From Oceanivirga salmonicida (lineage in GTDB: Bacteria; Fusobacteriota; Fusobacteriia; Fusobacteriales; Leptotrichiaceae): 50,520 nucleotides of DNA. The notes beneath the pieces were generated by a model that worked only from the letters and a program-made list of their open reading frames with translations, searched no databases and was not told where the DNA came from. Shown here piece by piece: positions 11,286 through 15,606 of the stretch. The stretch's first letter is position 1; each line of letters begins with the position of its first letter. A program made the position numbers and the translations under genes. The stretch lies in the NCBI RefSeq assembly GCF_001517915.1, contig NZ_LOQI01000004.1, positions 1-50,520 on the forward strand, read 5' to 3'.

Positions 11286-11333
11286 AAAAAGAGTTAAGCG
11301 AAGAACAGTTTTTGTTCTGGCCTAACTCTTTTT
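11286..11333. terminator. bidirectional terminator after the LacI-family gene
   Basis: The outer arms AAAAAGAGTTA (from 11286) and TAACTCTTTTT (11323-11333) are perfectly complementary, and an inner stem AGAACA/TGTTCT (11302-11307, 11313-11318) completes the hairpin. The T-run follows on both strands. The stop of the truncated transposase frame on the minus strand lies inside it. Confidence 0.8.
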
Positions 11334-11600
11334 ATTTGTTAATAAGAAAAATGATTTTTTTAAGATTTCGTTATTATTTTTTAATTTAACTATTTCTTTT
11401 TTTAAATTTTTGATTAATTTATCATTATTTAAAACTTCTTCTGTAAAAACATTAGAATTTTTATTAAATGCCGTAATCCATTTTTCTACGGTTTTTAGGG
11501 GGATTTCAAATTGTTTTGCGGTTTGTGCTGTTGGTTTCTTTTCAACACAAATAAGTTGAGTTATCATATGTTTTAACTCTCTATCATATCTTTTTGTCAT
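11322..11600 (-). pseudogene. IS3-family transposase OrfA remnant
   Basis: A 92-residue frame that looks like OrfA of an IS3-family element: a helix-turn-helix (TAKQFEIPLKTVEKWITAFN, about 25-45) followed by a leucine-zipper-like coiled coil (DKLIKNLKKEIVKLKNNNEILKK). The start is well supported by GGAGGAAATT before the ATG. In an intact element a frame encoding the DDE integrase (OrfB) follows with a -1 frameshift; here the sequence runs straight into the terminator of the LacI-family gene and no OrfB is present. The last few residues (TNKKS) come from that junction. It could still make a DNA-binding protein, but not transpose. Confidence 0.75.
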
Positions 11601-12070: not shown

Positions 12071-12130
12071 TTATAGTTAAGAAATGACGGGTCAATCTAT
12101 AACTATTTTTTGAAATGAGTTATAGAGGAG
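12071..12130 (+). promoter_or_regulatory. leader with two mutually exclusive hairpins at the adhesin RBS
   Basis: Hairpin A: ATAGTTA (12073-12079) pairs with TAACTAT (12100-12106), with TGAC/GTCA nested in the loop and a T-run right after, like a weak terminator. Hairpin B: CTATAACT (12097-12104) pairs perfectly with AGTTATAG (12118-12125), which covers the first bases of the binding site AGAGGAG (12124-12130). The two share bases 12097-12106 and cannot form together, so the leader could switch or slow adhesin synthesis. The pairings are seen; the regulation is inferred. Confidence 0.45.
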
Positions 12131-12138
12131 AAAAAAAT

Positions 12139-15100
12139 ATGAATGATGAAAAAAGGGTAAAAAGTTTTTTGAAAAATAAAGTAAGCATGAATAAGGCGAC
12201 TTTAATAAAATTTTTAATGTTAGGGTTTTTAGGGTTGACTATATCAATGCCAATTTATGCACAAGATGGTGCACCGGCAGATTTGGATATGAAAACTAAA
12301 AAAATAGTTAACTTAGCAGAAGGTCAAGAAGGAACTGATGCAGTAACAGTAAAACAATTAGTGACGGTTCAAAAAACTTTAAAAAATATTATAGAAAGTT
12401 CTGTAGCTTTGTTTGGAGGGAATGCTGTAATTGGCAAAGATGATTCAACTCAAGGGAAAATAACTATGAGTAATATTGGTGGTACTGGGAAATCAAACTT
12501 TGAAGATGCAATTAAGGCATCACAAGAAGAAATTTACACATCAAAAGATTCTGGTGTATCTGTAACAATTGATAGAGAAAAGACGGGTGACGGAGCAAAA
12601 AAAATTAGAATTGAATTATCACAAAAAACAAAAGATAATTTAAATGCGTTAGAGACTAAAACAACAGCACTAGAAAAATCAGTGATTTTAGCAAAAGAAA
12701 GTGTTGTTGGAGGTGGAGGAGTTCAAGTTTTTGAAACACCAGCTACAAATGATAAAGGAGCGATTTATACTCTTTCTTTAAACGCGGCTAATACGGAAAA
12801 AATGGCAAAAATTGGAGCTGGGAAAATAGTCTCAGGAAATACTGGAACTATAACAGGTGGAGCGGTACATACAGCATTAGAAACAGCATTAGAAGAAGTA
12901 AAAACATCAATAGATGTAGCAAAAGCACTTATGATAAATCCAACAGTAATAGCGCTTAATAGTAACATAGAAGTTGTTAAAAGAACTAATGCATCAGGGG
13001 GTAATGAATTTGAATTAACAATTAATAAAGATTTAGTCAATATTGATAGTATAAGTGGGCAAGGTTCAAAACTTGAATTTGGTGCAAATAGTCTTACTTT
13101 ATCAGATCTTAGTGGTGCTATTAAATTAACTGGAATAAAATCAGGAACAGGTGAATTTGATGCAATAAATAAAAAACAATTAGATAGCGCAATCGCAACA
13201 ACAACAGAAAAATTAACAATGGGTACTGGAATTACAATATTAAAAACAGCAGCAACTGATGATAAAGGAGCCTCATTTAATATTTCTTTAAATCAAAGTA
13301 CTCAAGAAAATTTGGGCAGAATTGGAACTGGTGAAGTAAAATCAGGAAATGAAAAAACTGTAACAGGAGATGCTGTATATAATGCATTAAAAGAATCAAG
13401 CGATAAAATAACAACAGAAATTGGAGTTATAAAAACAAAAGCATTAGCAATGGATAAATCTTTAAAAAAAGCAAATGAAAGCGTAGTTGCAGGTAATGGA
13501 ATTGGAATAACTGAAACAGCATCAACAGATAATAAAGGAGTAGTTTATACAGTTGCTTTAAATCAAGCTAATATAGAAACAATGGCAAAAGTTGGAGCTG
13601 GTAAAATAGCGTCAGGTAATGCTAAAACTGTAACAGGTGGAGCTGTGTACGAGTCATTAGAAGAAATGAAAACTTCCATAGAAGCAGTAAAAGTAGCATC
13701 AGAAAAAGGTCTAGAGAAGTCAAAAGAAACAGTAACTGTGGGAACAGGAATGAGTTTAAAAACAACATCAGCAACAGATAGTAATGGTGCTTCATTTGAA
13801 ATTTCTTTTGATCAAGGTATCCAAGAAAAATTGGGCGGAATTGGAACTGGTGAAGTAAAATCAGGAAATACTAAAACTGTAACAGGAGAAACTGTATATA
13901 ACGCATTAAAAGAATCAAGCGATAAAATAACAACAGAAATTGTAGACATAAAAGCAAAAGCATTAGTAATGGATAAATCTTTAAAAGAAACAACTAAAAA
14001 TATGTATGCTCATATTAGCGATAATGCAGCAAATTTAAGTAAAGGAGTTGCATATAATTCAGAGCAAATAACTGAAATTATAAAAGAAATAGACCTTCAA
14101 ACTACACAATTAGATGATGTAGATGAGTATTTAGATGGGAGAATTACTTCTTTAAATGATGTTACAGAACTTTTAATAGAGACTGTTAAACAAAATGAAG
14201 ATATGACTAGAGATATACATAATAATGTTTTAGATAATACATTAGAAATAAGAAAAGTATCTAAAAAATCTTCTAAAGATGTAAAAAAATTAGAAGAAGG
14301 ATCTGAAAAAATTGGTAAAGATATAGAAAAATTAGAAAAAGTATCTAGAAAATTATATGATTATATTACTGATAATACAATAAGTATAAATAAAGGTTCT
14401 ATAGAAACTAAAGAATCAACTAGAAATATATATACCCATATCAGTGATAATGCAGCAAACTTAAGTAAAGGGGTTGCATATAATGTATCGGAAATAAATA
14501 AAAATGCTGACAAATTAAAAGAAGTAGCTAAAAATTTATATAGTCATATTGATAATGGTAAAGCAAACCTAAGTAAAGGAATTGCATATAATACATCAGA
14601 AATAAGTAAAATATCTGATAAGGTTGATAAAAATAAGGTTGAATTAACGGAAACTTCTGAAAATTTATATATTTATATTGATGAAAAAGCATTAGATATG
14701 AATAAAGAAATTGCGTCTAATGCATTAAAAATAGATAAAGTTGAAGAAAAAGTTGATAAAAATCATGGAAAATTAAAAGAAGTAGCTAGAAATTTATATA
14801 GTTATATTAGTAATGGGTTATCAAATCTAAGTAAAGGAGTTGCATATAATGCATCAAAAATTATGGAAATTGACCAAACAACTAAAAATCTTGAAAATAG
14901 CATTGAATCAAATACGAATGCAATAGAAAATTTATCTAAATTCACTGAAAATGGTATTTCTAATGCAACTTCAGGAGTAGCTTCTGCTATGGCTTCGGCT
15001 AATATACCACAAGTATCAGCAGATAAGTTATTTGGAATAGGATTAGGAGTTGCTTATTATGATAAACAAGGTGCTTTTGCATTAGGTATTTCGGGTCAAG

Positions 15101-15606
15101 ATAAAGATAAAACTGTAATATATAAGCTAAGTGCTGGAATAAATACTAAAAAACAATTTTCTATAGGAGCAGGATTAAACTATAATTTAGGTAATACTAG
15201 AATGAGTAAAAATATTGTAGATAATTTAAAACAAGAATTTGCTATGTTGAAAAAAGCAATAGAGCCTAAAAAATATGTGGTTTCAGAATATAAATCAAAT
15301 ATGTTTGAATTATCAGGAGAGCAATTAATTCAAATAGAAGATATAGTTAATGAATTAAATTTAAACTATAAAGATAGAGTAATAGATGTAACTGGTTATT
15401 CTGATACTAGTTTAGATGATAGTCATAACTTAGAATTAGGATTAAAAAGAGCTAATGTTATTGCGAAAGCATTAATAGATGCAGGATTAAATGAAAGTTT
15501 TGTTATTAGAAAAGTAAGTTCTAATGGTTATAATAATATCGTTTCGACAAATAAAGCAAGAAAAGGTAAAGCATTAAATAGACGTGTTGAAATAGATTTA
15601 AGATAA
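12139..15606 (+). CDS. YadA-like trimeric autotransporter adhesin with C-terminal OmpA domain
   Basis: A 1155-residue surface protein. A signal peptide with an extended charged start (hydrophobic core about residues 22-38, ending IYAQ) is followed by a YadA-type neck (KIVNLAEGQEGTDAVTVKQL), four head/stalk units of the form IGTGEVKSGN..TVTG (starting near residues 225, 395, 485, 568), a coiled-coil stalk with repeats ending ANLSKGVAYN (near 623, 765, 801, 887) and the YadA membrane anchor (about 945-1023: ANIPQVSADKLFGIGLGVAYY, QGAFALGISGQDKDKT). Unusually, a linker and an OmpA-type peptidoglycan-binding domain follow (about 1056-1155: DVTGYSDTS, LKRANVIAKALIDAGL, LNRRVEIDLR). I chose the ATG at 12139, which has AGAGGAG just before it; an in-frame ATG at 12115 has no binding site. 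It is a single-gene transcript and likely mediates host attachment. Confidence 0.88.
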   Translation: MNDEKRVKSFLKNKVSMNKATLIKFLMLGFLGLTISMPIYAQDGAPADLDMKTKKIVNLAEGQEGTDAVTVKQLVTVQKTLKNIIESSVALFGGNAVIGKDDSTQGKITMSNIGGTGKSNFEDAIKASQEEIYTSKDSGVSVTIDREKTGDGAKKIRIELSQKTKDNLNALETKTTALEKSVILAKESVVGGGGVQVFETPATNDKGAIYTLSLNAANTEKMAKIGAGKIVSGNTGTITGGAVHTALETALEEVKTSIDVAKALMINPTVIALNSNIEVVKRTNASGGNEFELTINKDLVNIDSISGQGSKLEFGANSLTLSDLSGAIKLTGIKSGTGEFDAINKKQLDSAIATTTEKLTMGTGITILKTAATDDKGASFNISLNQSTQENLGRIGTGEVKSGNEKTVTGDAVYNALKESSDKITTEIGVIKTKALAMDKSLKKANESVVAGNGIGITETASTDNKGVVYTVALNQANIETMAKVGAGKIASGNAKTVTGGAVYESLEEMKTSIEAVKVASEKGLEKSKETVTVGTGMSLKTTSATDSNGASFEISFDQGIQEKLGGIGTGEVKSGNTKTVTGETVYNALKESSDKITTEIVDIKAKALVMDKSLKETTKNMYAHISDNAANLSKGVAYNSEQITEIIKEIDLQTTQLDDVDEYLDGRITSLNDVTELLIETVKQNEDMTRDIHNNVLDNTLEIRKVSKKSSKDVKKLEEGSEKIGKDIEKLEKVSRKLYDYITDNTISINKGSIETKESTRNIYTHISDNAANLSKGVAYNVSEINKNADKLKEVAKNLYSHIDNGKANLSKGIAYNTSEISKISDKVDKNKVELTETSENLYIYIDEKALDMNKEIASNALKIDKVEEKVDKNHGKLKEVARNLYSYISNGLSNLSKGVAYNASKIMEIDQTTKNLENSIESNTNAIENLSKFTENGISNATSGVASAMASANIPQVSADKLFGIGLGVAYYDKQGAFALGISGQDKDKTVIYKLSAGINTKKQFSIGAGLNYNLGNTRMSKNIVDNLKQEFAMLKKAIEPKKYVVSEYKSNMFELSGEQLIQIEDIVNELNLNYKDRVIDVTGYSDTSLDDSHNLELGLKRANVIAKALIDAGLNESFVIRKVSSNGYNNIVSTNKARKGKALNRRVEIDLR
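13321..13467 (+). repeat. 147-bp direct repeat in adhesin stalk, copy 1
   Basis: Matches 13840-13986 at an offset of 519 bases (173 codons) with 11 differences by my count. It encodes IGTGEVKSGN through LAMDKSLK. Recombination between the copies would delete or duplicate a 173-residue unit in frame. Confidence 0.85.
13840..13986 (+). repeat. 147-bp direct repeat in adhesin stalk, copy 2
   Basis: Second copy of the repeat at 13321-13467. Weaker similarity extends about 120 bases upstream of both copies. Confidence 0.85.
14005..14058 (+). repeat. ANLSKGVAYN-type stalk repeat (first of several)
   Basis: This 54-base unit, encoding YAHISDNAANLSKGVAYN, recurs at 14431-14484, 14539-14592 and 14797-14850 with small changes, and in a diverged form near 14669-14722. 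Each unit is flanked by heptad-like coiled-coil sequence in the adhesin stalk. Confidence 0.8.

Follow-up and report, generated by a model that had tools for sequence, protein, structure and literature searches.

The adhesin gene and its C-terminal tail

The window, i.e., the whole stretch of DNA that was analysed (50,520 nucleotides of contig NZ_LOQI01000004.1), comes from the fish-associated bacterium Oceanivirga salmonicida. It carries a trimeric autotransporter adhesin gene (12115–15606), which is one uninterrupted open reading frame of 1163 amino acids on the forward strand, as are all features given for it below. The N-terminus shows a basic stretch and then a hydrophobic stretch. Pfam places three domains above their cut-offs in the order stalk, anchor, OmpA: YadA_stalk, matched in two stretches (E 1.9e-9, 38.2 bits vs. 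a cut-off of 28.4), with a match in the passenger at residues 63–99 (12301–12411); the YadA-like membrane anchor PF03895, each chain's contribution to the β-barrel (residues 965–1024, 15007–15186; E 1.6e-8, 35 bits vs. 22.7); and, directly after it and at the extreme C-terminus of the same chain, the OmpA-type peptidoglycan-binding domain PF00691 (residues 1061–1156, 15292–15582; E 7.5e-9, 36.3 bits vs. 27.2). A pore-side linker helix, ENLSKFTENGISNATSGVASAMASA (14926–15000), is predicted to enter the barrel based on homology to YadA-type anchors. The barrel part matches the sequences of the solved Hia adhesin structures 2gr8 and 3emo, and the OmpA part those of YiaD (2k1s) and PA0833 (6jfw). 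As judged from these matches, the gene product is a trimeric autotransporter (type Vc) with a YadA anchor followed by an OmpA domain. This is in agreement with the preliminary description, which had located both domains correctly, and the domain search of the C-terminus that it proposed finds the two of them; the motifs it quoted, GYSDTS (1094–1099), RANVIAKAL (1112–1120) and NRRVEIDLR (1155–1163), are present, and its estimate of about 130 residues after the anchor compares with about 137–139 counted.

The last barrel strand, SIGAGLNYNLG (residues 1016–1026, 15160–15192, by alignment), is followed by a periplasmic linker of about 28 residues (15193–15273) with heptad positions V1035, L1038, F1042, L1045 and I1049 at 3-4-3-4 spacing, a pattern that is better than in shuffled linkers at p 0.037. 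The same holds at p<0.05 for 36 of 47 post-barrel segments of the family, which include near-copies and are not all independent. The linker helix is probably a three-stranded coiled coil. Within the OmpA domain, Asp1097 (codon 15403–15405) and Arg1112 (codon 15448–15450) are equivalent to Asp271 and Arg286 of Acinetobacter baumannii OmpA, which bind diaminopimelate (PMC5974059), and they are separated by the same 15 residues. None of the 41 adhesin tails and none of the 16 stand-alone OmpA proteins in the comparison lacks either ligand residue. With this key pair intact the earlier assignment of a putative wall-binding domain stands; a point against the tether proposed below is that the window domain has the weakest score (40 bits) among the nine OmpA domains of its own genome. 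Diaminopimelate epimerase was found in each of the seven genomes that bear the fusion, so the ligand can be made there.

The last strand is the presumed BAM (β) signal, and it does lie inside the chain, as had been pointed out; its internal position was, however, overstated as a special feature. OmpA itself has an internal barrel signal. Internal signals are ordinary in Fusobacteriota, because sampled OmpA-less adhesins of the phylum continue for about 30–70 residues beyond the barrel, and CbpF, which like other fusobacterial trimeric autotransporters shares with the window adhesin a C-terminal extension behind a YadA-type anchor but differs in having no OmpA domain, continues for about 48 residues (V378–L431 of 479), yet trimers form when it is made in E. 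coli (PMC12012533).

The gene after the adhesin is tex, and a simple scan found no intrinsic terminator downstream of the adhesin gene. A TpgA-like two-gene layout was rejected for the window, since the OmpA domain lies within the adhesin's own reading frame and the next gene is tex; the tail is also not TpgA by model NF047726 (26 bits vs. a cut-off of 350), the match being confined to the OmpA part. Chance pairing or a frame artefact was likewise rejected, because the Pfam cut-offs are passed and the in-frame pairing is repeated at five of the seven other anchors of the same genome and in six further genomes. Pfam gave no SLH match after the anchor at E 0.1, no Rfam RNA or tRNA was found in the window, and no relative was found in viral contigs. 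Upstream of the adhesin gene, a 92-residue open reading frame on the reverse strand (11322–11600) resembles a transposase helix-turn-helix fragment, and has no Pfam match at E 0.001.

Distribution of the fusion in Fusobacteriota

Counting the architecture across Fusobacteriota had been suggested in the preliminary description. Of 98 genomes of this phylum, 33 have YadA anchors, and the positions of anchors and OmpA domains were paired. The fusion is present in seven of these 33, spread over three genera, and accounts for 41 of the 89 anchors in those seven genomes, counts that are lower bounds as some assemblies are fragmented. Per anchor, it is found at six of eight in O. salmonicida, 10 of 12 in O. 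miroungae, all six in a genome of genus g2, and 3/15, 10/24, 2/9 and 4/15 in four genomes of genus g11 (presumed to be Streptobacillus). The remaining two anchors of O. salmonicida belong to tandem genes on contig C1; instead of OmpA, each has a coiled-coil tail at its end. Among the other 26 anchor-bearing genomes, no in-frame pair was found at any placed anchor, two anchors (one in G016 and one in G050) not being placed. A scan of genome contigs with the tail alignment returned only O. miroungae; its patterns came from the anchor alone, hence it is uninformative on other phyla.

The narrow distribution of the fusion within Fusobacteriota is new here. Streptobacillus moniliformis is the rat-bite-fever bacterium. 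Eight OmpA-tailed trimeric autotransporters of this species, from the same bacterial family as Oceanivirga, have been reported by Bechon et al. 2020, who suggested peptidoglycan binding (PMC7549365); the architecture as such is therefore known. Those proteins have the same YadA anchor followed by PF00691 at the extreme C-terminus, whereas the window protein belongs to another genus, and its linker of 28 residues is shorter than the 58–76 residues of most g11 tails.

Several loci depart from the common form. In two of the 41 cases, L062 of O. miroungae and L077 of g11, the OmpA part is out of frame with the anchor or forms a separate open reading frame downstream, owing to an assembly error or a decayed gene. 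Genome G094 has 10 anchor–OmpA pairs, two of which are short proteins with weak anchors. Short proteins of 334–373 residues from the Streptobacillus group (L083, 605–1705; also L087, L090 and L094) have hardly any passenger in front of their YadA anchor, which is divergent, and carry an OmpA tail; they are kept in at least three genomes. In G055, a separate OmpA-type porin gene lies about 700 bases past the anchor of a trimeric autotransporter gene (L111, C3 500–2700). In O. salmonicida itself (L024, C33 13500–17980), a large open reading frame comes directly after an OmpA-type porin gene; it exceeds 1165 residues, and its N-terminus is signal-like.

Probable exchange of tails between adhesins

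Barrels and tails of paralogous adhesins have diverged to very different degrees. The O. salmonicida copies C93 and C6 share 86% identity in the barrel and 34% in the OmpA domain; the corresponding values for L072 and L068 of g2 are 97 and 41%; and C45 has a barrel 79% identical with that of C1a, which lacks OmpA. In alignments the tails cease to match a few residues past the last strand; the linker and its OmpA domain travel together. These mismatched histories point to exchange of the linker and OmpA domain as one putative cassette, and the evidence for such cassette-like swapping of tails between adhesins is new here.

With respect to the source of the tails, the OmpA domains of two adhesins, C8 and C93, share 46–48% identity with the OmpA-type porin of their own genome vs. 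34–38% with the other adhesin tails, and they cluster with OmpA-type porins in two trees (support 94/90 or 88/79). Forcing every adhesin tail into a single clade gives a topology that the AU test does not reject, however (p=0.30 and 0.37); separate origins, hinted at by the trees, are accordingly not upheld, and a single origin is compatible with the data. Repeated capture of OmpA tails is possible. The window domain groups with the g11 tails on a long branch, and the anchor trees, which are based on 66 columns, are poorly resolved. We propose, as a tentative if plausible reading, that linker and OmpA domain form an exchangeable cassette, which recombines at a point immediately beneath the barrel and does so without depending on barrel or passenger, and that the own OmpA-type porin has supplied new content for it on at least one occasion. 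If this is true, the strength of wall tethering would be an evolvable trait of each adhesin.

A putative wall tether and its alternatives

We consider it likely that the product is a trimeric autotransporter adhesin whose wall tether is built in (in cis) and non-covalent, and infer its trimeric state, topology, wall binding and load bearing as follows. Three chains would form a single 12-stranded outer-membrane barrel, the passenger would be exported outward through this barrel, and below it each chain would continue through a short helix into an OmpA-type domain. The C-terminus of type Vc barrels is periplasmic by established topology, which agrees with the side on which the tail had been placed earlier, so the OmpA domains are expected to face the wall, where they would bind the diaminopimelate part of peptidoglycan non-covalently. 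A pull on the adhesin would then go to the wall, the membrane alone would no longer bear the load, and the cis form would provide three wall contacts per fibre. Joint action of the three domains and stiffer attachment under shear, both put forward earlier, may follow from such a design. A point against a tether is that two of the eight adhesins of the own genome, and most of those in Streptobacillus-group genomes, are without an OmpA part; adhesins can thus exist without it.

A trimeric adhesin barrel is coupled to an OmpA-type wall-binding domain also in the AtaA–TpgA system of Acinetobacter sp. Tol 5 (PDB code 9VNJ; PMC13082670; PMC8151025), however, TpgA is a separate protein whose N-terminal domain binds the barrel, whereas in the window adhesin OmpA is fused to each chain, with three copies per trimer. 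TpgA binds both AtaA and peptidoglycan and affects the surface amount of AtaA (PMC8151025), and in simulation it about doubles the force needed for AtaA extraction (PMC13082670). In Veillonella and other Negativicutes, some trimeric autotransporters likewise carry a fused wall-binding domain behind the YadA anchor, but it is SLH rather than OmpA and has a different wall ligand (PMC7549365). OmpA and OmpA-type porins combine an outer-membrane barrel, with internal β signal, and a periplasmic OmpA domain; unlike the window adhesin, they have an eight-stranded monomeric barrel and no exported passenger. In E. coli, OmpA links membrane and wall mechanically, and envelope strength requires both its barrel and its wall-binding domain (PMC11648852). 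By analogy, the parallel wall-binding designs (TpgA, SLH tails, and the type Va proteins with OmpA described below) argue for a tether. So do the domain order, the invariant ligand pair and its spacing, the heptad pattern of the linkers, the diaminopimelate epimerase of the fusion genomes and the occurrence of the in-frame fusion in three genera.

The tail might instead mainly aid assembly, with load bearing being secondary: by binding the wall, it could keep intermediates in the periplasm close to the outer membrane, or it could hold the three chains together during barrel folding. Loss of TpgA reduces surface AtaA (PMC8151025), as this explanation would have it, and all sampled OmpA-less adhesins of the family keep a coiled-coil tail, which would suit a trimerising helix. 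However, the similar barrels of C45 and C1a, one followed by OmpA and the other not, are encoded in one genome, so OmpA is probably not needed to fold that barrel type, and we regard a role mainly in assembly as unlikely.

Another explanation is that the adhesins serve as general tethers between outer membrane and wall in small genomes short of other OmpA proteins, the tail then not being for adhesion. There are indeed about 1–3 stand-alone OmpA domains in the fusion genomes compared with 5–9 in larger g6 genomes of the same family, but two g10 genomes have one OmpA protein and 15–20 adhesin anchors each and no fusion, so a reduced genome does not by itself require the fusion; moreover, the own genome still carries stand-alone OmpA-type porin and lipoprotein genes. 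This makes a general tether very unlikely. A tail without selected function, carried along neutrally as repeated envelope genes recombine, is hardly credible: while paralogues show mismatched tails, present in some and absent in others, and two tails are split or frame-broken (L062 and L077), the ligand residues are invariant in 41 domains that are otherwise down to about 35% identity, and the fusion has lasted in three genera.

If the adhesin is tethered in cis, the tying of adhesins to the wall would be a recurrent bacterial answer, achieved by fusion of OmpA here and of SLH in Negativicutes, and through a separate partner in Acinetobacter. The effect of wall-binding tails has been termed presently unknown (PMC7549365), and near-identical barrels with different tails or none in one genome provide ready-made comparisons for the effects of a tether on adhesion, surface amount and envelope stability.

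Related designs were met elsewhere. On Variovorax plasmid NZ_CP138497 (L117, 2–3771), an adhesin gene is followed 17 bases on by a gene that encodes BamE and OmpA domains and matches TpgA, though below the TpgA cut-off. It was rejected as a plasmid-borne fusion, since the sole plasmid match covering both parts is this TpgA-like gene beside the adhesin; by its predicted domains, the pair is a two-gene form of the same idea. Four proteins of a Fusobacteriaceae branch (family f2) have an OmpA domain behind the Autotransporter β-domain of a type Va autotransporter (L118, 1397–4000, L119, 1273–3999, and L120, 321–3500, on the reverse strand; L121, 2–2782, on the forward strand). In these, a putative wall tether is fused to a monomeric autotransporter barrel, and one of the four has a RadD-like barrel region.
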